Assembly (NCBI GenBank): GCA_963922205.1
Contig: CAWUHX010000039.1
Coordinates: forward strand, 1,546,930-1,610,929
DNA: 64,000 nucleotides
Reading direction: 5' to 3'
Source of the DNA: Romanomermis culicivorax
Taxonomy: Eukaryota > Nematoda > Enoplea > Mermithida > Mermithidae
Each line of letters opens with the position of its first letter. Positions within the stretch are counted from its first letter, which is position 1. The notes under the pieces are model-generated. The model had not been told where the DNA came from and did no database searches. It saw only the letters and a program-made list of their open reading frames with translations. Position numbers and translations under genes: made by a program. Positions 3,911 through 63,674 of this stretch are shown in pieces.

Positions 3911-6900
3911 ATGGATTTGATAAGCGCCGCGGCGTGCCCTAGTCCGTCGCCTTCACCCGTTTTCCTCGACGATGATTCGATGGACAGCGGCTACAGTGGG
4001 TCGTGTCAGGGAAAGGTGATTTGCATAATGTGGAAAATTTTTGGGAAAGTTTCGCATGGAAAATTCAACATATTGTTTCAATGCGACATGTTATCGACAT
4101 TTTTTTTTGTAAATTTTACTTGAAATTTTTGAAAACTATAAAATATGTCTAAAATTTTAAGTTGAATCACATTAAAATTTTGAATCTAAAGGCAAAAAAG
4201 TGCCTTCGTACATAAACCTAAATATCCAATTTTTCACAAATTTTTAGATTAAAGTTGTTCGATGTATAAAAATTTCTTTTTTCCAAATGGCCCAATCGGT
4301 AAAGAAAACTCGTTTCCAAATTAATCTCACCGAATTTACAGAAAACTGTAAACCAAAATTTGTAACAAAATTTGCAAATACCCATGTAAATTTTTATACC
4401 TTGTTTTTTGATTGGGCGAGTGTCGTCACAAAAACGCATCTGTTTAGTGAGCGGATTATAAATTCGCTGTTTTGGAAAATCATTTTTCGACTGTTCAAAT
4501 CTAGATTCTCTTAGAATCGACCACTGAGTACTTATGACTATGAAATTCAAGAAATACAACGAATTCTGCTTTGCTATCGTTAGAAAATCAAACTACTCTG
4601 TTGTAACTTTTTCTGGGCAGCCATAGAAAATTCGAATTTTGCACAAATTTTTGTTCATTTGATGCTTAATTTCTGTCTCCTTTCAATTCGATTTGTTCAC
4701 TTGTAGCTGCAGTTTACAGTGTCAGAAGCTGCTCTGGTGGCCTATCAGGAACTTTCTTCAGACAGGAAATGCATTCTCTATGTTTCTATTTTTGTGAGAA
4801 ATTTGAATTTTCCGCGAATTCTTGTTTTTTGATGCTTAAATGGGCCAACGCTAAAATCCTACTAATTCTTGGAATTTAGGGAATCAAGGGAATTTAGAGA
4901 ATACACGATTAGACGTTGCTGGTTTTTTACTTTTATACAATTCATAACCTATATTTTAATAGCTAAAGTTCATAGTTGACAATTTACAAGTAACACCGAT
5001 TTCCGCCTCACTCGAAATGAAAGTTTGTTTCTAGGTAGCTTGTTTATTAGGAAACTAAAGCGTGCATGTATATTACTGAAGCTACCTCGCTTGGATAGAA
5101 TTTCACCAGGATGTATGAAACTGCTGAAACAAGCAACAAAGTTGCAAATGCCCTATGACTGTAGCAGAGCAAGGTCAGTTGGCCTTGACCTAAAAAGAAA
5201 ACTTTTTGCATAGTAGAAATAAGCTTATGGTTAGTTTCTCGAAATATTGGACCGACCACTGACTTAAATGATATTATATGCTAGCTTTGCATACCAATAA
5301 AGCGATATAGCTCATGTAAAACTTAATAACCAGGTTGACTAAAGAAAGTCAGTCGACCTCGATAGTATGCAAATGACAAAAATGCGTCAGTTGACCTCAA
5401 AAGAATGCTTACAAAGCACGACCTGTGGTGGGAAGAAACTTGCAAATTATGCTAGAAAATCTGATTGACAACAACTTTTGCTTGTGACTTTTTTATATGG
5501 CTTATAATAAAACATTGATTTAATGCTAAATGACTTAATTTTAGCTTTTTATTAGTTCTTAAATTAAGAGAAGATGTACTATGTATTTAGATTTTGTGAT
5601 TATGTGCCTTTTAGTTTTCTTGTAAGTGCAAAGTAGCAAAAATCAACTTGTATAAGCCTTGATTGAACGAATTCAGTAATAAGAGGACCTTTGCTCATCA
5701 GTGATAATTTCGTGAATTTCTTACATTGGTAAAATTCAAATGATTACAAAGATTCTTTAACTTTCCATGCTTTCTTAAATTGATTAGAACCTTTAAATTC
5801 GCTTGATGTCTTAAATTTCCTTGACTCCTTAAATTCCCTAGGTTCCTTAAGTTCCCCTGATTAGTTCCCTTGATTCCCTAAATTCCCTAGATTCCTCAAG
5901 TTCCTTTGATTCCCTAAATCCCGTAACTTCCCTAGATTCCTTAAATTACATAGTTTATATTCCTTATCAACTGATTGTATTAGTAGGAATCTACGGTTGG
6001 GCCGCTTAAATTCCGTTTTTCATCAATTTCAATTTTTTACCGTAGATTCAGTTAACATCAGTAGCTTCTGTAAGAAAAGAAGCAGTGGTCAGCAGCTTTT
6101 GCACTAGGATAAACTTTCGTCAGACAAGAAATCCAGCCTTCAGGCAGCCATTATTGTAAAAGAACTCGAATTTTCCTCAAATTCTTGTTTTTTGATTCTT
6201 AAATTCCGTTTTTCTTGAATTTCATTTTTTGCTTTTAGATATCATTTACAGTATAAGCTACAGTAAGAAAAGGAAAAGTGTTCAGCAGCTGTTGCCCTAG
6301 AATAAACTTTCTTGTGACAGGAAATTCTACGCTATTTGGTGTACGTTCACCAAAAACGAAGCAGAATCGCTCGCCACTTTTTCACATATTTTCCTAAATG
6401 TTCAGCAGACACAGGCCCGAAGAATTTTTCCTTCTCGTTTTTTTTGTTTGACTAATGGCGTCCGTTTTGGCGTTGGTTTTGGGGATGGATGGAAAGAAAA
6501 GAAAGTCGGCGGCAATTTTTGTTTCTAAAACTTTCCCCTCGTGTCCAAAAAATGACGAGTTTCCAACGAAAGTGTCCATCAATCATTTTCCCAGGCGTAT
6601 TATAGTAGTAAATGTTTGTCCGCCGGCGAATGGGGCGAAAAAAAAGACGCCACCAAAGTTTTAAGTTACTGGTCTGTAAAAAATATTCATCAATGGGAAG
6701 AAAAGCAAAGTGAACTTGCAGATCAAGCATACTGTATCCAACAAATTTTGCAATTCCAGCTATCGAGGCTTTTCAGCCATCGGTCTCAATTCAGCCACTC
6801 GATTATGGAAAAAATATTTTTGTGAAGTCCGAAAATGAACTGTTACGGTCTCAACAAAATTTGTGAGACATAAAACGTTTTTCTTCATCAAGCTCTTGAG

Positions 6901-18338: not shown

Positions 18339-18807
18339 GGTCAAAGGCCAACAGAAATTTCTATAAAAAAACTGAATTGTTTCAAAATTAAGACTTCTGG
18401 TTTTTATAACCTGTTTTCCAAATATTGCCGACCAAATGGTTAATTTTTGGCTTCAAACTGAGAAAAGGGTACAATACTGTTTTATTGCATCAGAAGAAGT
18501 CACAAGGTGAGATGTTCCACAAAAGGAACCACCGGAACTCCTGACCCCAGGATTTTCAAATGGAGTAACACATTATACAACCATTCTTTGGAATCCACAA
18601 ATGAGTATCAGAATGTTGGAGCTTTAATCAGTACCGTACATCCATGATTTGCATCTTTCATCAAAGCTTTGTTGGGTCCTTTGCTTCAGCCGATATACGT
18701 TTTTATGGAGTGTTTAGATTAGTCTAGCTTATGAAAATTGAAACAATACCTTGTCGAGGAAGAAGAAAACATATGCTGATATGGCAAGTCAATGTAGCGC
18801 AGAGCAT

Positions 18808-18827
18808 GCTCGTGTGGCGCAATCGGA

Positions 18828-18864
<37 letters not shown>

Positions 18865-18881
18865 GAGCCCACCCGTGAGCG
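18808..18881 (+). tRNA. tRNA-Asn (anticodon GTT)
   Basis: A complete cloverleaf of 74 nt. The acceptor stem pairs GCTCGTG with CGTGAGC (two G-U pairs), with discriminator G. The A-box region is TGGCGCAATCGGATAGCGC. The anticodon arm is TTCGG-CTGTTAA-CCGAA, giving GTT. The T arm contains GGTTCGAGCCC as a consensus B box. There is no intron, and a T6 run for RNA polymerase III termination starts at 18884. The B box and stems look intact, so it is probably functional. Confidence 0.95.
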
Positions 18882-18889
18882 ATTTTTTG

Positions 18890-22375: not shown

Positions 22376-22403
22376 TTAACAACTTTACTGCCACGAGTTC
22401 CAA

Positions 22404-22470
22404 AGCCTAAGCCTAAGCCTAAGCCTAGACCTACGCCTCAGTCTGAGCCTAGTAAGCCTAAGATTAAGCT
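22404..22470 (-). repeat. Degenerate TTAGGC (GCCTAA) tract
   Basis: Starts AAGCCTAAGCCTAAGCCTA and continues with diverged units (GACCTACGCCTCAGTCTGAGCCTAG). It is immediately downstream of solo LTR copy 1. The unit equals the nematode telomere repeat. Confidence 0.75.
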
Positions 22471-24659: not shown

Positions 24660-24958
24660 TCTTTTTCCTTTTCCTTTTCCTTTTCCTTCTTCTTTTTCTT
24701 TTTTTTCTTTTTCTTTTTCTTTTTCTTTTTCTTTTTCTTTTTCTTTTTCTTTTTCTTTTTCTTTTTCTTTTTCTTTTTCTTTTTCTTTTTCTTTTTCTTT
24801 TTCTTTTTCTTTTTCTTTTTCTTTTTCTTTTTCTTTTTCTTTTTCTTTTTCTTTTTCTTTTTCTTTTTCTTTTTCTTTTTCTTTTTCTTTTTCTTTTTCT
24901 TTTTCTTTTTCTTTTTCTTTTTCTTTTTCTTTTTCTTTTTCTTTTTCTTTTTTCTTGT
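24660..24958 (+). repeat. (CTTTTT)n microsatellite, ~300 bp
   Basis: Nearly perfect hexamer CTTTTT repeated some 40 times after a CCTTTT-type lead-in. It produces long open frames in several phases (Phe/Ser, Leu/Phe, and Lys/Glu or Lys/Arg on the other strand), none of them genes. The high purity suggests recent or ongoing expansion. Confidence 0.95.
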
Positions 24959-28737: not shown

Positions 28738-31700
28738 ATGATGCGCCCCATGATTCATATCACACCTTTCGTATTATTCCAATTATCACTTTACACAACC
28801 ATTAACCGTGCCCAAAAAATCCAATGTAGCTTCGAGGGTAACGTCGGCCAGATGGTCTTTTTGCCAAAACCGGACGCGCTCCGTGCATTCATGTGTAAAA
28901 GTGCCGATGAAGTGATCACGGTAAAAGGTGAGAAAAAAACTTTGAAGAAAGCATAAATTTTCGCATTGAAGGTTGTTTACATAAAACTGTTCAGAACCTC
29001 ATCCATGTAAAAATTGACTGATACATATCTTACAGTATGATCGCATTACATGATGTGCAAATACGAGTGATGAATACCTTACAGTACAATCACGTAATAT
29101 GATGTGCAAGTACAAGTTATGCATGCCTTACAGTATGATCACATAATACGATGTGCAGGCACATTTCATGTACTGCATTGTACCCGAAAGTTCTACAACC
29201 TTCCACAATATTCTGTTATATTCTTTTACATTCTACAAGGTTCTAGAACATTTTGTATGCCGTGTTGTTTTGTATGGTCATTCATGTATTTATTGTTACA
29301 TTTAGTACTTTGATTGTGTTAGTTAGCCTTATTAAACTTAGTTATTTAGCGGCCAGTATTCCACTTGAATATTTACCAATTATACCAAGGCTAATCTATT
29401 TTCAACTTAGTTCAGTCATTATTCAAGACAGAACATTGACATTCCTCAAAAATTGACTTTACACCCATAGTTATAGCGATAACACCACATTGAGCTTTGC
29501 ACTGCTATAATTCAGTTGCAAATAAGCAAATAAAAATTTATAAAATACTTTTGTCCTGATCTTGATGAGATCTATTGACTGGTGTCAATTTTTTACGAAA
29601 ATTTCCGTGTTCTAAATTTTAAACCTGCATTAATGGTCATCCAAACGCAAAAAAATATTCCTCTTAAAATTTTACTTTCGCCACTCCCAGTAAATGCAAA
29701 ACTACTCAATTCGCTGCACATACCCCAATTCCACGCTTTTTCAGATCCTCAATATATTCGAGATTCGTGCAAATACCGTGTCGATGACTACGAATATGTA
29801 GTTGTCAGGAGGGCTCGGCCTAATGGTGTCCAGGACAAGAACATTGCCCAATGGGAATACTGTAGCGATCCTTGGAATACTACAGTAGCGGCTGCTAGTT
29901 TCAATCGACAAGGTAGACAAGTGAAAAACGAAAACTTTTAGCAATGAGCACGGCTTGCACAATTTTCCTTTTTCTCTGGAATTTTCAATATCAAATAGAC
30001 GATATCAGTGAGAAATTCAAAATTCATAGCACTTCTTCACTTTCAGATAAAAAATTTAAGTGTGAAAATCATGGCACTAATCTATACTATATAACTTCAT
30101 TTATAATCTTTGTTTCTATCAGAAATTTGATGAAAAATGGAAATCATTTAAAAATCACAAAATTTAGCATGATGCATCTACTTTTTCCGCCTAGGTTAAA
30201 ATTTTAATCAATCGACAATATCAATGAAAAAATCATGGAAATTCACGGCGTGATGAGTATGATTGCTATGTTCACGTGAACTAATAGTCAAACGTGAGAA
30301 TTTGAAAATTTACAGCACTGTCAAATTCTCATATCTTGTTTTCCTTAAGTCATTGAAAAATCGAAAATTCATAGCATTGAGCATGATTGGCAGAATTCCC
30401 ATTTTATGTGAAATTTTCGTGTTTGGTCGACAATATTATTGGAAAACTAGAAATTCACGGCGCATAAGCACGATTTTCAGTGGTTATGATATTGCTAATG
30501 CTTCTATAAATTTAAAAATTGAAAATCATTGAAAAATTCACAATGACGTGCACTATAGTCTGCATAATTTTCATGTGAATGAATCCTTATTTGGTAAGTA
30601 AAAAAATATGGAAATTCACGGCATGATCGGAATGATTGCAGTGTTTGTGGAACTAATCCTCAACCAATGAAAATTTGAAAATTCGCAATTCTGAACCTGA
30701 TCTGTAAAATTTTCATGTTTGTAATAGTTATTGCTTTTTTTCCCATGGTCAGTGAAAAAATATAATCGAATGAAAACTTACTGTTCTGAGCATGATCCAC
30801 ACAATTCTCCCCATGTTCATTTGAAATCTGCATATTTTCGCAAAAACAGTAAGAAATGAAAAATCACGTGGAAATTCACAGCACATGTGTACACAGGTGA
30901 TACAAATTTTGAAAGTATACGAACATTTGAGTTATGCTTTGCATGTTCATTTGAAAACTTGAATGTTCTACAGTCTGTCAAAGAAACGATCAATGTTACC
31001 CATTGGAAGTTATAGTCGACATGGTCCAGAAATTGGGAGGTATTTTTTCAGAATTTAGGGAACAAGATACGTTTAAATTACAGTATACTTCATAATGTTA
31101 AGGCACAATATCAACTAAGCCAACGTGTTCACAGTTGATCGGAGAGCTGAAACGTATAAGCGAGCCGTTCCTTCAACGATTTTACGCCGGTAACGATAGT
31201 CGCTGCGATTTTGGAGAAATAATTTCTGGTAAACTAAAATCTACAGCTACAGTAAAGAGCGAGTAGATTTTCTGTGAAAGTGATGATTTCTGATACAAGA
31301 GGCTTTTTTCATTTATGAACATTTTTCAGTGGTGAAGACTTCAGACTAGAAAATTCAGTTCTTAAGTGCTCCAAAGCATATTTGCCCTTAATCAGGCAAA
31401 TTTTCGTAGTTCATTCTTGGTCTCAAATCTCGGAATAATTTTTAGCCATTAACTGTCATTAGGTCTCCAGATATTCTCAGAAAACTCTGATGTGAAACAG
31501 TGTGTCTAAAAACATTTTCGAGAATTGTGGCTGATATGGTTGTGTTTTCGCCACATCTTCCATTCACATGAAATATCATTTCATATTTTTTACTTCTGCC
31601 ACAAAATCAGGCCATGAGATCGCATTTACACCTAATTTGCGTATTCAAAATTTTTGCACTTTTTGCGAATGGTGATCATAACTGAACCTACATTTTTCCA

Positions 31701-34700
31701 GTCCTCTTAGAAAGCTCTTCGAAAAACTTAAAAAAATATCCTCGGACTAGATGGCAGTAGAAACCTGCATTCAAAAAATTTTCGTTCCTCTGTAGATGAA
31801 ATGCTGCTAAAACTGAAATTTTGTCAACAATGGCACTGTAGTTTCTTTTGGCCTATATTAGCCCAGAAAACGGCTATCCGCGAGAAAAATGACCTTTCAA
31901 GGCAAAAAAAAATTTTTCTTCCAAAACGTTTAAAATAGAGTATCAATCGATAGATCTCATTGAGTTCTATTTAAAACATGATCTAAACTTGTGTGCCCCC
32001 CTTTTTGACTCAGTTATGAATGATTAAAGTTTAGTTCAAAGTTGGTTGACCACATTTTCCTTGCGCACTAGAGTGGTAACTGGTAACCTGAGTTTGACTT
32101 TTCCACATTTTTCTTCGTGCCACCCAAAAAATCATCGACTCCATTCACCCAGGATCATCTTCGTGGAATACGGCTCAAACTCAAACTTCAGTTCCTGGTT
32201 CAAAAGTCAGCGCATCAAGTGATACCGCCATTGACGCTTGTCGAAACGGCATTTTCAACAAAGTTTATTACACCAATGACGAAGCAACGCGTGATTTATT
32301 ACGCTTTTTCTTAGTGTACTTGATTTCATTTGGTTCAAAAATTTCTTCCTATGTTTCAGATTGTGTAATCAACGACAAAAGTGAATATAGGGGCAAGTGC
32401 GTCGTGATGGGCGACTTATTCAGTCGATTACAGAACCTTGGGCGGCAAAGGAATAAAATATCGGATACGGATGATAACACCATTGAGTACAAGCGCTACA
32501 TCCTACAATGTAAGTTATGCATAGGTTTGCCAGAGTTGGGACTTTAATTGACTGAACTTTCGCTTAAAACAATGTAAGTGATACATATCTTACAGTAAGA
32601 TCACACTGCATGATGTGCAAGTACGAATGATGCATACTATACAGTATGATTACATAATATGATGTGCAAGTATAAGTGATGCACACCTTACAATATGATC
32701 ACATAACATGATGTGCAGGTACATTTCATGTACTGCATTGCACCGGAAAGTATTAGAACCGTCCACAATATTCTATAATATTGTTTTATATTCTACAAGT
32801 TCTAGAACATTCTGTGATTTTCCGTGTATATAAGCTGTGTTGATTTTTACATTCATTCATTTATTTATTGTGCAATTTATTACTCTGATACTATATGTTG
32901 TGTTAGTTAGCCTTAGTTAACTTAGCTATTTACCAGCTAGTTATTCCAGTTGGATATTTACCAATTGTCCCAAGGCTAATCTATTTTAACCTTAGCCCAG
33001 TCATTATTCAAGACACAACAGTAAGCAGGATTTTTTTGGGCACCAATCGATATTTCTCATTGAGATCTATTCAAAGTTTAAACGGTGTAACTTAATTTTC
33101 GATGGTGTTAAGGATGGTTGAAGTTTGGTTGATATCACTTTTTCTTCTTGTTGCTGACTGAGTCTTTTTTTTAGTTCGATCCTTGATTTATCAAAGATCA
33201 GACAAGTACGATGGCGCACATGATTATTGGAATAAAGATGAAGCCTTCAATGTTTTGTTTAGTGATGCAGGTGAATATGCTCAACAATCCCAGTAGGTCG
33301 ACCATCGCTAAGACCATCCCAGTAGATCGAAGAAGGATATAAGCATAATTTTTTTATACATATGAATTTCCAGTGGTTCGACAATCCCAGTAAGTCGATC
33401 GTCCCAGTAGGTCGACTGTCCCACAAAGTCGACTATACCGATGAGCACGAAGTCTACGGCAGTTTAATGATTCAAATTTGCGAGATCAGATTGCTTTCAA
33501 GGATTTGGCTTACACTTAGGCATAGGCTTAGGATTAGACTTAGGCTTATGCAAGAAAGACATGCTGATCTTCTGGAGCTGTCGACCTACCGACCGGGATG
33601 GTTGACTTACTGGGACAGTTGTCGAGTCGCATGGATGGCTCGGAATTGTAGTTGTAGTGATTCCAGTGTTTGCAGGTGGTTTTCAGCAAAATGCCTTCTG
33701 AAAAACTACCAAAAATTGCACTGAAAGATATGAAAACCCACCGAAAAGCCACCACACAAAAATAATACGACTTCATCTAATAAGCGATTATTTGCGCTTT
33801 ATTTCCAACTTTATTATTATTTGTGTTTGAATTGAATATTAAATCAATAATTCGAAACACAAGTGAAAACGTGTCCATGTTTCGAAACATGTTTGCTCTG
33901 CAGCACTAACCATGCTAAAATTTTTAAACAAGTTTTGATTAATCAAAAATATATTCAATTACTTTTTAGATCTTAATCCACTTACCATTCCGTTCCATAT
34001 TTTTGCGCCACTTGTCTTCTTTTTTTGGATAAGTTGCTTGTTTCGGAAAATCGCAATTTCATTTTTTCATGCCAAATTCAGAAAAAATTGTATAGAAAAC
34101 GAAAAATCAAAACAAAGCAAATTTTCGGAAAAATTAAAAAATTGACTTCTGACCACGAGATACTACCGTGACTTTTTATAAGTGGTGAAAACTCACAAAT
34201 TCTCATATTTTTGAACAGTGTGTGGGAGAAAGAAATGTTAAACCATCAAAAAAGACAAAAAAATGGTAAAAAGTGCAAAATACCATAGCTGTGAAAAACC
34301 ATGTGAGAGGACCAAAAAACGCAAAAATGGCAGCAAATCACCTGCTAACCATGAGTGGGGGTGTGTGTTTGTGGTGCAGAATGCGCGATTGAACAGCTGG
34401 ATGCATCACTACGACACTCATTCCCCCCTTTTGTGGAGAAAAAGTCCATGTACAGTCACCAATGCAGTCTGCCCAAATGCAAGTGACGGGCAACTCAGAA
34501 AAATAATGCTCAGTGAGCGTCTCGAACCCTCGACCTTCAGCATACAAGGCACATGCTCTATTACCTGTATTACCTGAGCTATAAAGATGGTTCATAAATT
34601 GTGTTTGCAGTGGTGGTGGTGTGTGGGATGCAGACTGCATGATGAACGGCCCGATGCATCACTACAACACGCCTTCCCTCTTTTGAGGAGGAAGAGGCCC

Positions 34701-40700: not shown

Positions 40701-43700
40701 GAGGAACAGATTATCACGTAAGAAAAAGTGCTAAATTCCAAGTATAGATTGAAAGTTGACATTAGTCAAGCTTGAACATGCTTGTTAAAAATGTTACCCG
40801 ACCTGCATCGAAATGTCAGTTTCGTATCCTGGACACTGTTCTTACGGATGATAACATGTAATGAGAAATGTAATCAACAAATGAAAAATTCTCTTATTGC
40901 ATACTTACTTAAGAAAGAGTTGCAGTCATAGATGTATAGGGAGAGTGCGACACAAATTTGCCTTCAAAAATGTTCAGAACTCAGACAAAAATTGATTATA
41001 ATGCTTCAAAACTTCGTTTGTAGATGTTTCTCAGTGTCTTTTTTCAGCTCAAGCAAAAAGTAAATCTTTTTTTACAATTTTTAAAATTTTTACATGAAAT
41101 TTAAGTCTTCATATTGTCAAGTCTTAAAGCGAACTGATCCATTTTTAAATCACACCTATTTTTATGTTTGTTTGCAACATTTATTTGGGGAAAATTTACT
41201 TCTATATTTGATATTATGAAAAACCCTCCAAAAATGGGGTTTGTTAGGCAACTGTGGGGTCAACACTATGCAACAGTTCTGACCACAGGCTAACAACAAC
41301 AACAACAACCACAAAACTCTCCCAGACGTTTCACCAGATACTCGCCAGAACTTTCACTAAACCTCAGGCAGAACACCTTGGCACGTACCGCAGGAGTTCC
41401 TACCCAAGTCTCCAATCCTGACCTTATAAACTCCTTCCCCTACGCTCACAGAACAATACACTTATGGGTTCAAGTTGTATTGGGTAGCTAGTGGCGACGC
41501 CAAAGTAACAATAATAAACAAAAATATTGTAGAAAGGCGATGGCGGCGTCACTCCATAAAAACAAATAAATCTAACACTGACTAACAAACAGAAAAACCG
41601 CGAAACAGTGGCAGAAATAACCTATGCAAATTTATCATTTCTTTTCGCCACTTTTCGCCGCGTCCAACCGCCTGCGCACCGACGCTGGAAGCTGAACACG
41701 TGCACCTGAACCCACCTCAACATCCCTCCGCCCTCAAAACCGACCAACGGGAGGTGAAAACCTTTCTGCAGCCTGAGTCTCATACTGAGGCCCCGACTGC
41801 ATAACAGTTTTCCCCTCGGAAAACAAATTTTTGGGGCTACCCCCTCCAAGATGTGATCCAGCCCCTACCAGGTCCTTCAGGTGATGGCGACCTTGACCAA
41901 TCCATTCGGCAGGGCACTCCCTTTCGGGCTACCGGAAACGATCACGAACGTAGTTCAGCCTGGACTTTGACGTCGATCTGTGCCTAGATCCGGGGCATCG
42001 CCGTTCCTCTTCTCCCATTTCCTGGTTTTTACAGCTTCGGTGATGAGGTGTCCCAGGTGCGCTTCCTCCACGGTCGGCCGCTCGCCACGTCGCTCCGTCC
42101 AATACAAATCTACTCAGTAAAAAAAAACATTTTCTATAAAATACTTCAAATATCTAATTACGAAAATTTTATAAATGCAATTAAAATTTTCACGTCTTCA
42201 TCTTTTTCAGGCCCTGAAATTAAACGAGAAAAAATATGAGGGCTATACACGCCCGAAATAAGATGGACGGAAAGACGAATTTCGCCGGGCAACTTTTGGG
42301 CACCGGAAACGAGAAAAAATTTAAAATTTAAAGCAACAATAAAACGAGATAATATATTTTTTTTGTATTTTGTATTTTATTTGTGTTTTTGTATTTTTGT
42401 GTTTTTGAAATAAAATTTGTACGAAATAACGAATTTTGGTCCAAAAGTGATGCGGCTATATGAAATTATTGTTGCCCGCCGCCACCATAACCGCCTGTCC
42501 CTGACCCCAGCCTCGGCCATATCGCCCTTCAGTTCCCCTCTGGTACGAGCCCTGAGTGGAACTTACAGAAGATACTCCAGAAGCTGAGGTACTCGACCTA
42601 CCTTGACTTTGCCGTCAGATCAACACCTTGATTTTTTCTACCTGCATCATTAACATTCCAGATGGCGACCAGATCTGTAACCAAGTTGTATCCAACGAGA
42701 AGCATGTCCGAATCTAAGAGCTCATGAATGAGCGTCCATTCCTTCGGCATGATTGTCGTAGTATCTACAACAAAGGTGTCTCCAGTTACCGTCGAGAAGC
42801 TAATGACTCTCGCGAACTCCTTCCCTTTTGGGTTATCAACCCCAGAAGTCGCGAAAACCTTACTCACGTACTCTTGAGTAACTTTCTCGGTATCAAAACC
42901 GATAATTGGCTGTCCTCGAAACCTGCTCACCTTCAGGATTTCGATCATCTCAGCCACCTTACCTATTTCGACCAATTTCGGTTCCGTCAATTCCAACGGA
43001 AATCTCCCGAAATTCGTGGCGAACCACCGTTCCAATTCGCCGACTCTAACAATGCGCTTGACATTGTAGTCTAAAAAATTCAGGCGAAATGTTTACAACT
43101 TTTTAATGGAAATTTCTCGAAGCGGACACACATCGGTTAGACTCTACCTTCACCACAGATAGTAAGCACAAATAGGAAAGAAGAAAAAAAAATTGCAAGC
43201 AGGGGAAAATAAGGTACCACACATATATTGGGTTAGTGTTGGCAGATAGTTAAACACAAGTGCGGCCCCGACTTCTACCTTATACGGGAGTACACGCACA
43301 GACCACCTGCGTCTTCCATCAATCGACTGCTAGCCGTCTCAATCCAACGCCCAAAACGGCCTATCCAACCAATAAATTAAGAATTTCCAAGAAGAAATTT
43401 GAAAATATATTTACTAATTTACCCAAAATGTGGAAATTCGTAGAAAATTAAATTAAGATGGAATTTAGAAATTTAAATAAATTTTGAAATTATCTACCCC
43501 TAGTCGACTAGTTGCTACGCTCCACTTCTTCCCCATAACATAGACGAATTTATTCAACTCGCTATGTGTGTAGAGGAATAATGCAGTTTCGCAAAAAGTC
43601 CAAAATTTTTTTTTTTTTTTTTTTGCGCTACGGGTAGCTTTGCCACACTTTTTCAAGTTGACAGAACAAATTTGTTCCCACTAAACTTTTACAATTGTCT

Positions 43701-46700
43701 AGGCCTTCATCTAGACACCCGTGGGCTATGACATCCTGCTTTGCCCAATAAATTTTTAAAATTGACTAAGTTTAAAACTTAAGTTGCTTACCATCGACTA
43801 GGAAATACCGATTATTCTGCCGCACCTGCGGCTGACCGTAGGTCACGTGGGGGTCCGTGACCAGGTATTGTTTCGTCCGGCGTCCATTGGGGGGCCTGGA
43901 CATTTCGACCGCTTCTTTCTCAAATTCTTCGAATTCCGCGCTATCAATTTTCGAAAATTTTTAATAATTTTTTATAAGAGCTGAAAAATCGACAAAGTTT
44001 CCGCTTTCGCTACTTTTTGTCTATTTTCACTCTAAAACTCAGCGGTTTTCCCAATTCTTCCAATATTCACAGAATTGGGGGGCAACAACTACTTATTTCC
44101 TCGGAAAAAATTAATCGGACTCGGGAAAATTTAAAATTTAGGGCTGCGAAAAAATGTAAAAAATTTAAGATTTTTGCGAAGAGTTGTTTTTTACCAAAAA
44201 TTTTGAAAATTTAAAGTTTTGGGCGAGATAAATTTAAAAATTTGCAATAAATACCTTGAATAAATACAAATAATTACAATATGTATTCTGACTGGTTCGA
44301 AACAAATGATCCAGCCTGGTCCTGGATAGTAGCAGCCTGAATTGCTGATCGACTAGTTGATGCAGGTAGCATCAACTGAGGCTGCCTTTGCAATTGGATG
44401 CCTTGCTCTCTAACTCTGCAGAATTCCCTGTATCTCTCAAATTCTGGGTCATACCCGTACATTTGATCTTCTTCGGGGAATCCTACATAATAGGCACCCC
44501 TTCCTCTTCCTCTAAATCCAAATTGAGGTCCACCTCTACCTCTGAAACTTCCTCTATATGAAGCATTCCTATCACCACCATAATACTGATTAGGCATGCC
44601 ATGGTTAAATCCACCGCGTTGCTGTTGCTGACGCCGGTATGCTAATGTCTTACACTCCTCCGTAGCATGTGTATTATTCTTATGATAAATGCAATAGGGT
44701 CTCTGCTGCTTCAACTGCTTCTGCTTTTCAGCAGACGCAGCCTTCACAGTAGTCAACTCTTTTAAGGCTTCACTCTGAGTAACTTGTAATTTATCTACTT
44801 TCTGAACCAATTGTAGCCACTCCTTTGAGAGAATAGCTAGAAAAGACTCCTTGGCCTGCTCCTCGTTAGACTTTTTGACATCACGAGGCGACGGACCAGG
44901 TAGCATCTCTTCCCCATTCTCCTCACTTCTCTCCTCTTCCACTGCCTTTTGCAACTGATTTTGTGGTCTTGACTTCGTTTGGTTATACTTTTTAGTACTT
45001 CCATACGGAGCATTCCCAACAAAAGCAATTTCCGGGCATATCTCCTCCGCTACAACTTGATTCACTACTATCGGTTTATCCTTGGCTCCAAAAGTAGTAA
45101 AAACATTCTTATATTTCTTATCAATCTGAGTTACGGCGTATGCAAGGTCTTGCCAAGTTTTCATCGATGGCAATACGTCCTGCAACTCCGTCTGATACAA
45201 CGGACTACTCTTATAAATGAAGGCATTAATAATATTCTCTTGCCTTACTTGATCACTCTGATCTGCGTAGACCAGATCCACATGATTACTCAACCTTTTT
45301 AAAAACTCCAAGGCTGACTCGCCTTCTTCCTGTTTCATATTAAACAACTCCCTTTTGAGCATCGTCAAATCATAAGTCGGCGCGAGATACTTTAAAATAT
45401 TTCTCCGCGCTTCTGTATAACTTGAGGATGTTCTCGCTATCCTCCTCGCTGTGTTCTGAGACAACCTTCTCAAACACTCCTTTTTCACTTTATCAGCCGT
45501 ATTCTCCAGAAATTCACTTTCCAGATCAGTAAAAAATTTCAAAGCCTCCGTCGGCTTTATAGTATCATGTAAAGGTCTATGTTTCAAGGCCTTTACCACA
45601 TCTCTCACATCAACTTCAACACTTGAGCTAGAGTTCGAAGTAGATGAACTGCTATTCTCACTATCTGAGTAATGTCTACTTCTAGCTCTAGATCTGTGAG
45701 ATCTCTTTCGACTCTTTGACTTTCTCTTTCTTCTCCTCTCAGGGCTAAGGTCAGCTCTATTTGCGGTATCTCTCCAAGGAGTAGGACGAGAAAACCTATC
45801 CTCTCCCTGGGACGATTCGTCGCAAATAGTCACCTTCCTTTCCCTCGACCTCCTATTCTCTGAGTAACCGTAGGCATTCGATTGTGCTTGTTCAGCATTC
45901 CTCGAACTCTGCGGCTCCTCAGTCCAACCTCTATCTCTAGCCGAATATTTGTCTCTATCATCTTGAGACCTGACATAAACTTCCGAATGAACCTCTCTCT
46001 TAGGTTCACTAACTCTCTCAACTCTATTCTCAAGGTAAGAAGACTCACCTATCTTCCTCCGTTGATCATCCTCCATTTCCTTTTCCTTAATTTGCGCGCT
46101 TTCGATTACTTTGATCAATAACTCGACCTTCTTCTCCAGCGCGTTAATTCGTACGTCCTTGGGATCGACTCGATCCCTCTGCTCCTCTCGCCGAATAAAA
46201 TTCGCCATTTCGGGGTCGTATCGCCTCGAATATTTGTCGTCGTATAAATCGGCCGGCGCGTCCTCGTAATACTCGTCGTAATTCATGTCCACCATGTTTG
46301 ACCTCCACGCCGGTTTCCATTTCCGTCTAATCTCCTCCAGCGTCTCGGCCATCGGATGGACCAACTTCGAGGGCGACGTCGGTCTCTCCTTCTCAAAGGT
46401 CTGCTGACCTCTGACACTACCACTTACAGTAGTTTCAATCTCGGCTCTCCTAGCCATCTCAAAACCACTTCTCCTCAAATCTTCTTCAACTCTTGCCATT
46501 TCGGCAATTCCACTCTCTCTCCTTCCTTCAGTCTCAGGCGCCTGTGCTTGAACCTTTTCTACCGCTGCGTGTTCTTCAGCAGAGTCCAGATTCGAAACAC
46601 TAGGTTCATGTGACCTAGGAGGAGTCCTCAACATTTTTCCTACCGGAATACTCATCTTTTTCACTTTTCCGGTATGTGCCTGTAAATAAAACCCAGGAGG

Positions 46701-48713
46701 CTTAGTTATTTTTCTGGTGGTTCTCCGGTTATACGTCGTGAGAGGCGTTAAGAGTCCACCACTTGTTAGGCAACTGTGGGGTCAACACTATGCAACAGTT
46801 CTGACCACAGGCTAACAACAACAACAACAACCACAAAACTCTCCCAGACGTTTCACCAGATACTCGCCAGAACTTTCACTAAACCTCAGGCAGAACACCT
46901 TGGCACGTACCTCAGGAGTTCCTACCCAAGTCTCCAATCCTGACCTTATAAACTCCTTCCCCTACGCTCACAGAACAATACACTTACGGGTTCAAGTTGT
47001 ATTGGGTAGCTAGTGGCGACGCCAAAGTAACAATAATAAACAAAAATATTGTAGAAAGGCGATGGCGGCGTCGCTCCATAAAAACAAATAAATCTAACAC
47101 TGACTAACAAACAGTAAAACCGCGAAACAGTGGCAGAAATAACCTATGCAAATTTATCATTTCTTTTCGCCACTTTTCGCCGCGTCCAACCGCCTGCGCA
47201 CCGACACCGGAAGCTGGACATGTGCACCTGAGCCCACCTCAACAGGTTCAGCCAAAGCCCTGCCTGGGGTCAGAACCCAACCAAACCTCCTCAAGAACAT
47301 GTATGGTTTTAGCTATATCTCTTCACAAAATTAAAAAAATTTTGCTCGAATTCAGCAAATTCAAAAAATTCAATGAATTCTGTGTTCACCCTTTTTCAAA
47401 AGTGTTTTATTTCGTGTCGTCATCGTGAAAAAATATTTGCTTGAGCTCCTGGAAGTTTCATTCTCGTGCATGCAAGTTGGACTAAGTTGGATAGACAAGT
47501 TTTGAACACTTAACTTTGGGACAGCGGAAGTACTGAAATTGAAAGTGGAAAAAATTTTCTGGAAAAACTGAATCGTAGTTTTACCGATCAAACTTTGCTT
47601 TTCGTAATTGTTTTTTGCCACAAAATTGAAAAAATTTCCGGTCGCTTGACTTCAGCGGAACCTATTCTGTCTGAAATACTGCTACAGTTAATAATCAAAG
47701 TGGAAAGCAGGACGATTTGCTTATATCAAATTTTTTGAGCATAATCAACTAATTTTTATCAATGTTTTGAGTACAGAATTTTACTCTAAAATTTTTGGCT
47801 GAACGAATTGGAAGATAGTATTAATTTTTTCGATTTGGAATCGTTTCACTCAAAAAACCCGGTTAAAAAACAATCAATGAATCCATTGCTGACTTTCCCT
47901 GGAAGCCAGTTATCCCTTACTTTCCATGAAAGATTCCCGGAGCACTTATGCTGTATTGAGCACTCATGAAAATATTCTTCATCCATATTTCTTGGTTTAA
48001 CTGGTTTAATAACGCATGTGTGTTGTCGTAGATAGTTTTTCGTCCACATGGATGAAATTTCAGAATTTTGAAACCAGTTTTTGATTTGTAATATTTGATC
48101 AGACGCACATTTTTTTTATCAAAAGTGTTGAAAACCTTCATCAAAGGGACTTATGCTCCAGCTGAGCTGCAACTTAAGCTGTAGCTTAACTCATATGCAC
48201 AAAACATATGGGTAAAGCTAAGCAGCAGCTGAGCTGCACCTTAACGACAATGTTATAACATACGGAGTTAAGCTACGGCTCGGCTACAGCTTAACTTTCG
48301 CGATATGTTTTGTGTGCATGAGTTAAGCTGCAGCTGAACTGCAGCTTAACGGCAATGGTATAACATACAGAGTTAAGCTACAGCATAAGCTGCAGCTCAG
48401 TTGAAGCTTAAGTCTCTTTGATGAAAGCGGGCCCCTGAAGTTCTCGAAAAGTCTATTAGTTCACTAGTTAATTCGTGGTTCAATTTTTTAGAGAAAAACG
48501 TTGCATAATTTTATTATTTTTATTTGATCTGAAAATCGCGATGATCTGGAAGTTTAAAAACATGTTGTCATCACGTATTTTTCGTTGCAGCTTGTCCTAC
48601 GGATGGTTGATCAGGGCCAGAAAAAGCGTATGATAATTGTCACAGATGATGAGCCTAAAGACGTGTGTAATATTGTTAATAAATTGAGCAACATTCAAAT
48701 TGTTACACATTGA
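28738..48713 (+). CDS. Unrecognised Cys-rich secreted protein, at least 12 exons
   Basis: Exons inferred from splice sites and phase: 28738-28927, 29745-29920, 31135-31228, 32207-32509, 33175-33270, 36360-36503, 36943-36981, 37046-37117, 37159-37323, 40337-40483, 40544-40717, and probably 48591-48713. The N-terminus (hydrophobic [21 protein letters not shown] region) looks like a signal peptide. The mature protein has roughly a dozen scattered Cys ([61 protein letters not shown]), fitting disulphides outside the cell. All assigned introns except the second are phase 1, typical of extracellular modular proteins. I recognise no domain. The last exon is open in phase 0 (40 codons to TGA), but the preceding donor is phase 1, so either a small exon is missing or the protein ends seven codons into it. 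Exon 4 contains a stretch that could be a very short intron. Confidence 0.65.
29019..29435 (+). mobile_element. Solo LTR, copy 2 (heat-shock-element family)
   Basis: 417 bp bounded by TGATACATATC and ACAGAACA and flanked by perfect 5-bp direct repeats TTGAC (29014-29018 and 29436-29440). TG..CA ends with 5-bp duplication are the signature of an LTR. The left third contains three ~45-bp units (CTTACAGTATGATCACATAA..GATGTGCAAGTAC). A TTCTAGAA palindrome is at 29241-29248. The TATA-box segment seen in the other copies is deleted here. It lies in intron 1 of the secreted-protein gene. Confidence 0.85.
29940..30960 (+). repeat. Degenerate ~90-bp minisatellite, intron 2 of secreted-protein gene
   Basis: Units carry GAAAATTTGAAAATTCACAGC, then ATGAGCATGATTGCAG, then ATTTTCATGTGAACT..., then a GGTCAGTGAAAAA-like word. 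About ten imperfect copies. The reverse complement of the same family fills much of 53750-55700. Confidence 0.65.
32579..33020 (+). mobile_element. Solo LTR, copy 3 (heat-shock-element family)
   Basis: 442 bp, starting TGATACATATC and ending ACACAACA, with a perfect 5-bp target duplication GTAAG (32574-32578 and 33021-33025). It contains three ~45-bp 5' units, a consensus heat-shock element at 32800-32812, and a TATATAAG box at 32827-32834. It sits in intron 4 of the secreted-protein gene. No internal region or second LTR is visible, so it is a solo LTR. Confidence 0.9.
32800..32834 (+). promoter_or_regulatory. Heat-shock element plus TATA box in solo LTR
   Basis: TTCTAGAACATTC is three alternating TTC/GAA units with 2-bp spacing, the minimal consensus HSF1 site. 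A TATATAAG box starts 15 bp later. The same order occurs at 22160-22198 (third unit TTG instead of TTC, then TATATAAG). In the copy at 29241 the third unit is TTT and the TATA box is lost. Further TTC words (ATATTCTATAATATTC, TACATTCTAC) precede the element. Confidence 0.65.
33512..33552 (+). repeat. Degenerate TTAGGC tract
   Basis: CTTAGGCATAGGCTTAGG followed by ATTAGACTTAGGCTTATG: six diverged TTAGGC units in an intron. Confidence 0.65.
34370..34935 (-). mobile_element. Tandem tRNA-derived SINE copies
   Basis: Two head-to-tail units of about 245 bp, plus the start of a third near 34870. On the minus strand each begins with a tRNA-like head: TAGCTCAGGTAATAC..AATAGAGC resembles an A box, and GGTCGAGGGTTCGAGAC contains a B box (GGTTCGA). 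A ~150-bp tail shares TTATTTTTCTGA and CTGTGCAGGGCC/ACTGTACATGGAC words and ends near the TGATGCATC motif. The second copy has GGTCGAGAGTTTGAAC as B box. Overlapping frames on both strands (34263-35125) are not genes. It lies in a long intron of the secreted-protein gene. Confidence 0.65.
34940..36350. other. Intronic, nothing recognised
   Basis: The remainder of the 3.1 kb intron between exons at 33270 and 36360. No repeat boundary or ORF that I can support. Confidence 0.4.
37385..37570 (+). repeat. ~22-bp tandem repeat CAATACAGTATTAAATTGT
   Basis: About nine imperfect copies of (T)CAATACAGTATTAAATTGT in an intron of the secreted-protein gene. Units abut directly, without unique spacers. 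Confidence 0.8.
38610..38804. mobile_element. Foldback element with GTTAAGCTGCAGCT core, copy 1
   Basis: Terminal inverted repeats GGCCGGCTTCATCAAAGAAA and its counterpart TTTTTTCGATGAAAGCGGCC. The interior is a string of palindromic words (AGCTGAGCTGCAACT, AGTTAAGCTGCAGCTGAGG, TTAAGCTACAGCTTAAGCTG), so almost the whole ~195 bp can fold back. No coding capacity. A larger relative lies at 48131-48435. Confidence 0.75.
39565..40055. mobile_element. Foldback MITE with ~150-bp inverted arms, TA target
   Basis: Starts CAGGGGGTACCCAAAAGATA and ends with the reverse complement of CAGGGGCTACACAAACGATA, with TA on each side (39563-39564 and 40056-40057). The arms stay complementary far inward: AAAGTTTGCGGCCTTGACT and GTGGGACGATACAGGAGAT on the left match the right arm reversed, as does TGTAGAAAGTAT. 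The centre has further TTTCTACA/TGTAGAAA words. The TA duplication suggests mobilisation by a Tc1/mariner-superfamily transposase (inference). ORFs 39762-40123 lie inside it and are not genes. Confidence 0.8.
41242..41722 (-). repeat. 3' LTR of the antisense retrotransposon
   Basis: 481 bp, TGTTAGGC..CTCAACA on the plus strand. By eye it differs from the copy at 46764-47244 at about nine positions, roughly 98% identity, indicating a fairly young insertion. The element is read on the minus strand, so this left copy is the 3' LTR. A purine-rich GAGGGCGGAGGGA lies next to it on the sense strand. Confidence 0.93.
41723..41735 (-). other. Polypurine tract
   Basis: Sense strand GAGGGCGGAGGGA directly abutting the 3' LTR; the expected primer for plus-strand DNA synthesis. 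Confidence 0.7.
42598..43945 (-). CDS. DEDD-type 3'-5' exonuclease-like protein in LTR element, 2+ exons
   Basis: Exon 1 runs from about 43945 to 43792 (ends RYFLVD, donor GTAAGC). Exon 2 runs 43070 to 42598 after a TTTTTTAG acceptor. Joining them gives an unbroken frame ([15 protein letters not shown]). Exon 2 has exonuclease motif I ([10 protein letters not shown]), the core strand and motif-II region ([14 protein letters not shown], then [20 protein letters not shown], with Asn and Asp placed as in motif II). These match the pattern of the WRN/Mut-7/EXD2-type fold. Motif III (Tyr/His-x3/4-Asp) is not in the visible part; the frame stops soon after [18 protein letters not shown] donor there and an Arg/Gly-rich open stretch downstream (42596-42470) suggest a further exon or a frameshift. 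The start codon is not established. Confidence 0.6.
44274..46655 (-). CDS. gag: Gag polyprotein of LTR retrotransposon, 793 aa
   Basis: Structural and RNA-packaging protein. The first ATG is at 46655 (MSIPVGKM). Order: charged N-terminal region; coiled-coil-like segment ([17 protein letters not shown]); RS-rich stretch ([19 protein letters not shown], then a Ser run) near residues 310-345; a capsid-like helical domain ([55 protein letters not shown]) of the retrotransposon-gag type; a nucleocapsid zinc finger C-x2-H-x4-H-x4-C ([14 protein letters not shown]) near residue 650; and Arg/Gly-rich tail repeats (RGSFRGRGG). The ORF is intact. No protease or polymerase is fused to it. Downstream on the same strand lies the exonuclease-like ORF. 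Confidence 0.9.
46744..46761 (-). other. Primer-binding site
   Basis: Two bases inside the 5' LTR, the sense strand reads TGGTGGACTCTTAACGCC, complementary to a tRNA 3' end ..GAGTCCACCA. The tRNA identity is not assigned. It does not match the tRNA-Asn at 18808. Confidence 0.75.
46764..47244 (-). repeat. 5' LTR of the antisense retrotransposon
   Basis: 481-bp partner of 41242-41722, TGTTAGGC..CTCAACA on the plus strand, followed by target duplication GGTT. Confidence 0.93.
48131..48435. mobile_element. Foldback element with GTTAAGCTGCAGCT core, copy 2
   Basis: Left CTTCATCAAAGGGACTTATG, right CTTTGATGAAAGCGGGCCC. The interior has more copies of the palindromic AGTTAAGCTGCAGCTGAACT/GCAGCTTAACGGCAATG unit than the relative at 38610, so it has about 305 bp. 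The left terminal GGCC is degraded. Confidence 0.75.
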
Positions 48714-60601: not shown

Positions 60602-60836
60602 GCGAGATCTGTCATCAATTTGATTGGTGGAAAAATTCCACACCTTCAATTTGATTGGTCGAAAAGTTGTCGTCTACTCGTGAGTCCAAGCCTGAGCCCA
60701 GGCCTAAGCCTACTAACCTAAGACTAAACCTAATCCTAAGCCTAAGCGTGAGTCTAAGCCTAAAAATTTGCCAGAAATAACTGTAAAAATCAATAAATTT
60801 TTTCGACCAATCAAAATGATGACAGATCTCGCTTCG
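60602..60836. mobile_element. Inverted-repeat element enclosing TTAGGC tract
   Basis: Left arm GCGAGATCTGTCATCAATTT continues to GATTGGT. The right arm is the reverse complement (ACCAATCAAAATGATGACAG, ATCTCGC, ending near 60836). Between the arms is a second partial CAATTTGATTGGTCGAAAA word and then the telomere-like tract at 60686-60767. No coding sequence. No target duplication was recognised. Confidence 0.6.
60686..60767 (-). repeat. Degenerate TTAGGC (GCCTAA) tract, ~13 units
   Basis: GTCCAAGCCTGAGCCCAGGC, then CTAAGCCTACTAACCTAAGA, then CTAAACCTAATCCTAAGCCT, and onward; units vary between GCCTAA, GCCTGA, ACCTAA. The longest such tract in the window. Confidence 0.7.
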
Positions 60837-61505: not shown

Positions 61506-63674
61506 CAGTCGAACTTCGTTAATGGATACCCTGGATAATGAATTTTCCCAGATATTGAATACATAGTATGGTGGTCCCTGCCAAATGTAACAGTATAAGA
61601 TATAGTTGGTACTCGCTTAATGAACACTCGGTTAGTGGTTAATGAATACCCCTAGGCCAGTACCCTAGTACTTATTTATATGTATTATTACTCTGATAAT
61701 GAATACTCGGTTAATGAATACGGCTGTTTGGATAATGAATACGGCTGTATGCAAATTTCTTTTTAAGACTGTGTGTGTGTTTAGCGTATTATTGAATCTC
61801 ATTGAATGTTTAATGTGTTGTTGTCGTTACTGCTGATATTTGTTGAGTCGAGTCGATTGTTATTTTATTATTTCGTGTGTCAATTTAAAAAAATACATTA
61901 TGCCGCCAGTTAAAAAAATCATATTTCGATCGAAACTATTAAAATAATTAATAAAGCTGATCAATTATCGTACTCTGCATTGGCGGAAAAATATAGTTTA
62001 TCTAAAGCGACTATTGGATCAATTATTCGACGAAAATCTGACGTTATAAAAAATGTTGAAACCGGACATTTTGGATTATCGACCAAAAGGATGCAAGCTG
62101 CAAAAGAAACCGATGTTGAAGACTGTTTGCTAAAATGGATCAAACAAGTGCGATTGGCTATTTTTTTATTTCTGCTTCAGTTTAAGTTATCAGAAATCTG
62201 GCAATCTTTTAAACAGGTTCGCTCGCAAAACGTTCCACTATCTGGTCCAATAATTCAGCAAAAAGCTAATAAGTTCGCCGAACAATTAGGAAAATCGGAC
62301 TTTAAATGTAGCACAGGATGGTTGGACCGTTTTAAAATTCGGCACGGCTTAATTTTTAAAAAAATATGTGGCGAATCGAATTCTGTTGAAAATTGTAATA
62401 CGGATGATTGGTATAAAAACGTTTTACCCGACATATTAAAAAATTACGCCAAAAATGACGTTTATAACGCCGATGAAACCGGTTTGTTTTGGCGATTGCT
62501 GCCTGATAAGACTTTAACATTTGAGGGTGATAATTGTGCTGGTGGTAAAAAAAGCAAAGAAAGAATTACGGTATTGGTTGGATCAAACATGGACGGCACA
62601 GATAAGTTGCCTTTATTGGTCATCGGAAAATTTAAAAATCCAAGATGCTTCAAAAATATTAAGACTTTACCAGTTGATTACGATTTTAATAAGAAAGCAT
62701 GGATGACGTCTACAATGTTTGAAGCTTGGCTTACAAAATTGAATAAAAGATTTAAAAAATTAAATCGAAAAATTGCAATGATTGTCGATAATTGTCCGGC
62801 TCATCTGAATTTAGAATTTTCGAATATTAAGCTTATTTTTTTGCTGCCTAATACTACATCGAAAACTCAGCCGATGGATCAGGGTGTAATAAATTGTTTA
62901 AAAATTAATTATTGACAAATATTGGTCGAACGTTTAATTAATTCTATCGATAATAATCAGGAGTTTTCCGTTTCTTTATTGGATGCTATAATTAACCTCT
63001 CTCGATCGTGGGAAAAAGTTAAACCAGAATCTATTTCTGGGTGTTTTGAAAAAGCTGGTTTTGTCTTTGATGATATTATTATGAATAATAATAATGAATT
63101 CACTGCGTTTCTGAAGTTTTTAATCGTCTTTGAGATTTGATGCAAATTAACAGCGATTTTAGTATTCAAGATTACTTAGAATTTGATAATGAAATTATAA
63201 CAAGCGATATTCCTGATGATTCGTCTATAATTGATGATGTTATTAAACCGATCGAAGTCGAAATTTTTGATTCTGATAGTGATGTGGATGATCTAGGCGA
63301 AGAAAATAAAATTGCTTCATTTTCTGAAATAAAATCGAATATTTCAAATTTACGTAAATTCGTTTTGGCACAGGATAATTGTTGTGATACGATATTAACT
63401 TGTATCAATAAGTTAGATGATTTTTGTGACGTAGTTCATTGTGAAAAAATGAAACAAATGCAAATAACTGATTTTTTTCATAAGTGATTTTTTTTTTTGT
63501 TTTTTTGGTAGTTATGAAGTTTATCTTCTTGTTTAATTGAATAATATAATTAAAATTTGATGTTTTAAATACTTATAAGTGGCTTTTTAACCTAATTTGG
63601 TTATTGAATACACTCGGTTAATGAATACGCCTTCTGTTGGTCCCTTGGGGGCATCCATTATCCGAGTTCGACTG
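61506..63674 (+). mobile_element. Tigger/pogo-type DNA transposon, 2.17 kb
   Basis: Terminal inverted repeats: CAGTCGAACTTCGTTAATGG on the left and, reversed on the right, CAGTCGAACTCGGATAATGG. The element is flanked by TA (61504-61505 and 63675-63676). CAGTCGAAC termini with TA duplication are typical of Tigger/pogo elements. Sub-terminal TTAATGAATAC words recur at both ends (61626-61745; 63602-63627). It contains one broken transposase gene. Confidence 0.93.
61900..63487 (+). pseudogene. Broken Tigger/pogo transposase (CENP-B-like, DDE)
   Basis: Cut-and-paste transposase. The likely start ATG is at 61900 (MPPVKK). Domains in order: psq-type helix-turn-helix (YSALAEKYSLSKATIGSII), Tc5/CENP-B-type DNA-binding helix (STGWLDRFKIRHGLIF), and DDE catalytic domain with Asp residues in YNADETGLFW, MIVDNCPAHL and PMDQGVI. 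An acidic C-terminus ends in a PCNA-interaction box (QMQITDFF). Three lesions: a frame change in the A-run at 61912-61918, an in-frame TGA at 62916-62918, and a frame change near 63130. In addition, 62148-62216 (69 bp) looks like an in-frame GT-AG intron, or an insertion between two KQVR words. It is not expected to make active enzyme. Confidence 0.88.

Follow-up and report, generated by a model that had tools for sequence, protein, structure and literature searches.

A DEDDy-like exonuclease gene in the env position of a Ty3/Gypsy-type family of the nematode Romanomermis culicivorax, and its shortened, probably non-autonomous copies

Exonuclease genes of retroelements and the present locus

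Where retroelements carry a gene in third position, the familiar case is an envelope gene. In bdelloid rotifers, DEDDy ORF3s have been described from Juno, Vesta and Athena elements (Rodriguez, Kenefick and Arkhipova 2017; PMC5408684). According to the portion of that paper considered here, the bdelloid ORF3s are separate units expressed from spliced messages, a DEDDy ORF3 was acquired at least twice in bdelloids, and TelKA2n is a non-autonomous family without most of pol and with an env-like ORF. The same portion reports mostly neutral variation for the env-like and GDSL ORFs, a test that covered these ORFs and not the DEDDy ORFs. DEDDy ORFs are also listed in Terminons in the portion of PMC6431247 considered. 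Beyond the bdelloid work and its reviews, no direct precedent was recognised in the open-licence full texts searched.

The window analysed here (a stretch of 64,000 nucleotides of R. culicivorax DNA) contains an LTR element with long relatives in the same genome. Like Juno and Vesta, these relatives are LTR elements that have, besides gag and pol, an ORF3 of DEDDy type where env would be expected, whereas their host is a nematode and thus belongs to another phylum than the bdelloid rotifers (PMC5408684, portion considered). The nematode ORF3, with about 1,475 aa, two further conserved regions and an RG-rich tail, is probably much larger than the Juno/Vesta ORF3. Its motifs read DEDD, in contrast to DEED in the bdelloid ORF3s, and a dUTPase, present in three of four bdelloid lineages, was not found in the long element scanned for it (C60), whose gag-to-integrase pieces matched none of the dUTPase models even with E up to 1 allowed. 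Moreover, 2,794 first-look candidates contrast with scarce full-length bdelloid copies, and dN/dS of ORF3 is low here, whereas values for the DEDDy ORFs are unreported for bdelloids in the portion of PMC5408684 considered. Terminons and Athena Penelope-like elements likewise carry a DEDDy exonuclease as an accessory retroelement gene, but they are endonuclease-deficient, telomeric elements with an Athena-type (Penelope-like) RT and not LTR elements (PMC6431247, portion considered). The cellular DEDDy exonucleases Mut-7, EXD2 and WRN (PF01612) share motifs I, II and III with Yx3D; compared with them, the window family is very divergent, has a longer loop after motif I, is encoded by a retroelement and includes large C-terminal regions that match no known family. 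Relative to the bdelloid precedent, the apparently new features are thus the other phylum, the probably much larger ORF3 and the evidence of constraint.

The shortened element and its long relatives

The minus strand of the window holds a 6,003-bp LTR element (41242-47244), as the earlier note had claimed. Its 5′ LTR (46764..47244) and 3′ LTR (41242..41722), each 481 bp with TG..CA ends, differ by nine mismatches without gaps, and a GGTT target-site duplication stands on the left (41238..41241) and on the right (47245..47248); the small number of LTR differences agrees with the fairly recent movement that had been proposed. A putative primer-binding site (PBS), TGGTGGACTCTTAACG, lies downstream of the 5′ LTR (46746..46761, minus strand) and is identical across seven aligned copies, and the polypurine tract GGGCGGAGGGA adjoins the 3′ LTR (41723..41733, minus strand), with a polypurine-like tract at the equivalent place in four long relatives. 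The gag frame extends from stop to stop over 44274-46781 (835 codons), of which 793 aa are counted from the first ATG (44277..46655, minus strand). It features an RS-rich middle, a C-x2-H-x4-H-x4-C knuckle and an RG-rich C-terminus. A Pfam scan of this frame matched no gag model; the label gag was given because the frame carries the knuckle and occupies the position in which a gag-pol frame begins.

The second gene of the window element, also on the minus strand, consists of exon 1 (43792..43903; 112 nt, 37 codons from the ATG plus one base), a 721-bp GT-AG intron (43071..43791; GTAAGC...TTTTTTAG) and a truncated exon 2 (42598..43070), which closes after 157 codons with a stop at 42598-42600. 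Exon 1 (43903-43792) and exon 2 (43070-42601) join in frame to 194 codons, and the previously proposed splice coordinates 43792/43070 proved exact. Exon 2 encodes the N-terminal half of a DEDDy-like domain, with motif I (FDTE; D and E codons within 42886-42894) and motif II (GYN..TD; N and D codons within 42673-42687). Motif III (Yx3D) is absent from the ORF3 frame of this copy because the frame stops at a deletion junction (42602..42611, minus strand, located by comparison with L009), after which pieces of the RG-rich tail stand. The description of this gene in the earlier note as spliced and DEDD-exonuclease-like was right, but only half of the domain is retained, and the 194-aa product, lacking most of ORF3, should be catalytically dead, as predicted from the missing motif III. 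A Pfam scan of the window ORF3 fragment alone gave no match.

Exon 2 was used to search the assembly that contains the window (595 contigs, 359 Mb), giving the 2,794 first-look candidates, of which 150 were scored, all with E below 1e-90. By hand count, the frame around the match was exactly 1,445 codons long in 61 of these 150 rows, and 22 matched up to residue 157 like the window copy; rows 2 to 8 (L002-L008) were 96-98% identical to the window exon 2. Six further loci were examined around the 1,445-codon frame, which was open in five and broken in one (L014), and the 5′ end was also examined for four loci (C60, C14, C61 and C17). These four long elements span about 14.07-14.08 kb from LTR to LTR, with LTR differences of 5/483, 10/474, 23/477 and 8/477 and 4-bp target-site duplications of CATG, GAAG, TATT and ACTG. 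The pol domain scan covered C60 (L009, L015) only among the four, and identified a protease (gag-asp_proteas, 2.4e-10), RVT_1 (3.3e-40), RNase H, Integrase_H2C2 and rve (Pfam), that is, the Ty3/Gypsy order PR-RT-RNase H-IN between LTRs with a short target duplication. The gag-pol of C60 is a single open frame, with the 1,445-codon frame (ORF3) downstream of the integrase in the env position; breaks were found in the gag-pol of C14, C61 and C17. Judged by Pfam models and domain order, the long relatives are a Ty3/Gypsy-type family. The same element, with the same splice sites, recurs throughout the 359-Mb genome, which together with the PF01612 matches of the fuller copies (see below) argues against a chance arrangement. 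No relatives of the family were found in the viral contigs or prokaryote genome contigs searched.

Comparison of the window element with the long copies by blastn indicated how the two forms are related. LTR and gag are retained to about position 2955, after which the window copy skips pol and resumes at the exon 1 region; a second jump of about 3.5 kb leads from position 4643 within ORF3 to the tail. The window copy thus lacks the stretch in which the long relatives encode pol, in line with the previous claim that it has no polymerase of its own. The gag/exon 1 junction (44280..44290, minus strand) was used as a query of 141 bases, giving 327 first-look candidates, 40 of which were scored; 11 of these 40 places matched it over its full length with 94 to 100% identity, and among the other 29, C33 spans it partly and the rest match mostly on the gag side. 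The ORF3 junction was spanned unbroken in all seven other search loci (L002-L008), and three of the seven (L002, L004 and L008) also spanned the gag junction within the 1.5 kb examined. Two of these shortened copies, L121 (at the L002 place) and L122 (at the L004 place), measure 6,141 and 6,146 bp, with target-site duplications of TGAT and GATT and LTR differences of 2/478 and 0/480, respectively. The shared junctions, own target-site duplications and young LTR pairs identify the shortened form as a subfamily that has been moving recently.

Non-autonomous elements of the TR-GAG type are gag-only LTR elements that have kept LTRs and gag, have lost pol and presumably move in trans. Compared with this type, the window copy also keeps a spliced, half-length exonuclease domain and has a pol-bearing relative with matching LTRs in the same genome. 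The search for other copies and an autonomous partner that the earlier note had proposed thus succeeded, in that long, pol-bearing relatives with matching LTRs were recovered from the same genome. As expected of a non-autonomous derivative, the same LTRs and gag, the lack of pol, the shared junctions and own target duplications were all found. With regard to anatomy and descent, mechanism aside, the window copy is thus very probably a non-autonomous, internally deleted member of the long-element family. The matching LTRs, PBS and gag suggest that such shortened copies are probably mobilised in trans by the pol of long copies.

Identity, splice signals and apparent constraint of ORF3

The long ORF3, about 1,475 aa in all, comprises the 37-codon exon 1 and an exon 2 frame of some 1,438 codons, with the DEDDy-like domain first, the two further conserved regions next and the RG-rich tail last. 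D-x-E, the motif II D and Y-x3-D occur in that order in full ORF3, and among 25 long copies the tetrad was kept almost without exception (D67 25/25, E69 24/25, D140 25/25, Y244 25/25, D248 24/25). We take D67/E69, D140 and Y244/D248 to be DEDDy motifs I, II and III, respectively. A full catalytic tetrad in several copies had been set beforehand as a supporting test, and each residue was indeed present in at least 24 of the 25 long relatives; the motif II asparagine (N136) was kept in all 25. With E up to 1 allowed, the Pfam model PF01612 matched 24 of the 25 fuller copies, the best at 2.2e-4; the curated cut-off of this model was not reached by the window family (L009, 16 to 18 bits vs. 23.6). 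An NCBIfam 3′-5′ exonuclease/polymerase model matched ORF3 at 0.0061. PDB sequence searches gave no significant exonuclease either with the window family (EXD2 6k17, E 0.29) or with the two other ORF3 regions. A profile of RNase D (E. coli and 12 of 80 loci) showed no significant match to the window family and a weak one to a second family described below (E 0.0022).

Other DEDDy lineages in the same genome provided the intermediate steps. The genome search with PF01612 yielded 119 scored candidates, 103 of them at E up to 0.1; by hand count, 95 of those 103 pass the PF01612 cut-off, six only with frame neighbours. The 95 include fourteen rows with frames of 608 to 614 codons, and none of the places of the window family was recognised among the rows of this search. 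The L125 lineage, with 41% identity to ORF3 over 297 residues, matched PF01612 at 1.7e-4. The second family exceeded the curated cut-off of this model (L124 1.5e-13, L127 7e-11, L123 1.4e-10), and L124 matched a mut-7 homologue (7jw2, 6.4e-4) and WRN (2.4e-3) in the PDB. In L123, the sole second-family copy read upstream, RNase H and integrase zinc-binding matches precede the exonuclease frame. The profiles of the window family and the second family aligned over 220 columns (E 3.2e-5, probability 72.7); a BLASTP comparison of ORF3 with the second family gave no convincing similarity. The acidic residues are kept in both the L125 lineage and the second family, and the motif II asparagine is absent at the aligned column in both. 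Taken stepwise through these relatives, the comparisons support the identification of full ORF3 as a DEDDy-like 3′-5′ exonuclease.

Other assignments of ORF3 were considered and set aside. In the linker, PF12212 gave a PAZ-like match at E 0.037 to 0.039, below the cut-off and within a low-complexity stretch. A Maelstrom-like Cys-His-Cys pattern did not hold, C149 of A1 being kept in L125 but not the later Cys and His. An env identity was likewise set aside, the pieces of ORF3 having matched none of the env families in Pfam.

Splice signals were compared in an alignment of 30 rows, which contained the window copy twice (win, L001) and left out L014 as well as L003, L004, L005 and L008, in which the anchor word did not occur. 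The acceptor AG of exon 2 was present in all 30 rows and the donor GT of the intron in 27, with one GC and two rows unaligned there. The exon 1 ATG with its 112 nt was kept in 26 of 30 rows (L010 has TTG, L029 a frameshift, and L036 and L007 were unaligned). Upstream of exon 1, the window copy has a 3′ splice acceptor, GATTTTTCAG (43981..43990, minus strand), a candidate entry for a subgenomic or trans-spliced message; the acceptor TTTTTCAG upstream of the ATG was found in 28 of 30 rows. Candidate partners of this acceptor are a donor in the LTR, GAGGTACGT, present in five of seven copies, and a trans-spliced leader. The canonical SL1 leader had no exact match in the genome; therefore, the species might lie outside the usual SL1 users or use a leader variant. 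Overall, the intron is a feature of the family, as would suit expression of ORF3 through splicing of a subgenomic message.

Two side observations concern the host sequence. The window contains two arrays of AAGCCT (= TTAGGC), and TTAGGC is the nematode telomere repeat. PF01060, which we take to be a mainly nematode family, had 38 matches in the genome, all above the cut-off, and none in 14 control genomes; as the seven named ones are prokaryotes, this control is of little value with regard to other animals. Both observations fit the nematode host.

Pairwise dN/dS of ORF3 was calculated for 25 copies, most of them picked for long frames (26 were examined, L014 being broken), so the values lean low because this choice favours intact copies. 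They were 0.136 for residues 1-300 (exonuclease domain), 0.127 for 301-400, 0.097 for 401-690, 0.185 for the linker, 0.048 for residues 1091-1300 and 0.221 for the RG tail. The second family gave 0.082 (four copies, dS about 1.05) and the L125 group 0.174 (three copies). For gag, four long copies gave a dN/dS of 0.138 and three shortened copies one of 0.131, stops being skipped in three of the seven stretches (two in C61 and one each in C17 and L121). From these comparisons, ORF3 of the long family looks to be under constraint.

These results bear on the origin of the gene. In the model of the earlier note, a host exonuclease gene with its intron was captured by the window element and has since travelled as a passenger, a reading prompted by the exon-intron structure and the exonuclease motif words. 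It now appears extremely improbable: the same gene, splice sites and tetrad occur in the long relatives, the junctions show the window copy to be a deletion of the long form, and dN/dS is low. The intron is likewise no sign of capture by the window copy because its splice sites are conserved across copies of the family. We therefore rejected a captured host gene in a lone passenger element, against which the long relatives, shared junctions and low dN/dS all speak; the exonuclease of the window copy is instead the truncated start of ORF3.

A separate question is whether the half-domain of the shortened copies is itself selected, for example because it serves full ORF3 as a decoy or as a dominant-negative partner. 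Its dN/dS was 0.102 among the four copies sharing both junctions and 0.093 among all eight copies (L001-L008), gag gave 0.131 in three shortened copies, and the half-domain contained no stops in these eight. However, they are the best matches and not a random sample, and four of the 22 window-type rows carry stops. In addition, dS among the four shortened copies reaches 0.21, equal to the level of long copies, and the constraint on the half-domain is therefore perhaps borrowed through recombination with long copies. Selection on the half-domain itself thus seems very unlikely.

Possible roles of ORF3

The organisation of the family suggests the following model. The long element would encode gag-PR-RT-RNase H-IN followed by ORF3 in the env position; its genomic RNA would keep the intron, and a spliced message would make ORF3. 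Shortened copies would be copied in trans by the pol of long copies. The complete ORF3 may act as an accessory nuclease, kept because it helps the element. The preferred target would be RNA 3′ ends, either in the element's own ribonucleoprotein or in host small RNAs; RNA in general as the target is quite possible, if slightly less than an even prospect. cDNA ends are the alternative target, and the evidence favours neither RNA nor cDNA.

One possibility is a counter-silencing role: as an exoribonuclease, ORF3 would shorten or degrade the small RNAs of the host or the precursors of these, allowing the element to escape RNA-based silencing. The best PDB match of the second family (the mut-7 homologue), the RNA-binding-like RG-rich tail, the strong-looking constraint on ORF3 and the lack of an env family in the Pfam scans of its pieces would all fit this role. 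DEDDy enzymes, however, also act on other RNAs and ssDNA. Rodriguez, Kenefick and Arkhipova (2017; PMC5408684) doubted a silencing-promoting role as self-limiting, neither role being tested in the portion of their paper considered. We regard the counter-silencing role as somewhat unlikely.

Alternatively, ORF3 might work inside the replication particle, trimming cDNA or primer ends or removing unpaired 3′ nucleotides before integration, a role that we consider similarly doubtful. It is a separate spliced gene that is not fused to Gag-Pol, and ordinary Ty3/Gypsy elements, to our knowledge without such an ORF3, manage without it. On the other hand, both the window family and the single copy of the second family read upstream have a DEDDy frame behind the integrase, and some DEDDy exonucleases, WRN among them, act on ssDNA (PMC5408684, portion considered).

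A broader reading would combine both forms of the element. In several animal phyla, LTR retroelements might recurrently carry a DEDDy exonuclease as a selected third gene, serving counter-silencing or RNA-end processing, and the gag and dead half-nuclease of the shortened elements might be working products that interfere with the long element or hitch-hike on it. We rate this combination as unlikely.

Returning to the preferred model of an accessory nuclease in a long family with shortened derivatives, ORF3 is intact in many copies and looks constrained, and it resides in recently mobile elements of a phylum in which RNA silencing is well studied. The role of a retroelement exonuclease therefore becomes testable. 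The shortened copies could serve as a natural comparison, with the same LTRs and gag, no complete nuclease and no polymerase.

Conserved regions of ORF3 beyond the exonuclease

In addition to the DEDDy-like exonuclease domain, ORF3, the third gene of the long relatives, contained two regions (L009:5888-6790 and L009:7943-8620, numbered on the long copy L009) with no significant match in Pfam, NCBIfam or PDB searches. Their pairwise dN/dS values (ca. 0.097 and ca. 0.048, respectively; 25 copies, most chosen for long frames) were both lower than that of the exonuclease region (0.136).

Other features of the window

A transposase fragment of a DNA transposon was found at 61914-62915 (+), matching DDE_1 (E = 1.3e-33) and HTH_Tnp_Tc5 (E = 1.3e-16), and a tRNA-Asn (gtt) gene at 18807-18882 (+). 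Interstitial telomere-like AAGCCT (TTAGGC) repeats were located at 22403-22462 and 60688-60763, and an open frame of FS repeats contained a TCTTTT hexamer array of ca. 49 copies (24660-24952). Two short arrays ca. 3.5 kb apart (29025-29157 and 32591-32723) had similar 49-bp units.

PF01612 fragments in a possible tandem array elsewhere in the genome

The PF01612 search of the same genome detected three fragments in G000:C158 (at 182213, 187991 and 193769). Their equal scores and exact 5,778-bp spacing suggest that a unit carrying a DEDDy sequence is repeated there in tandem.
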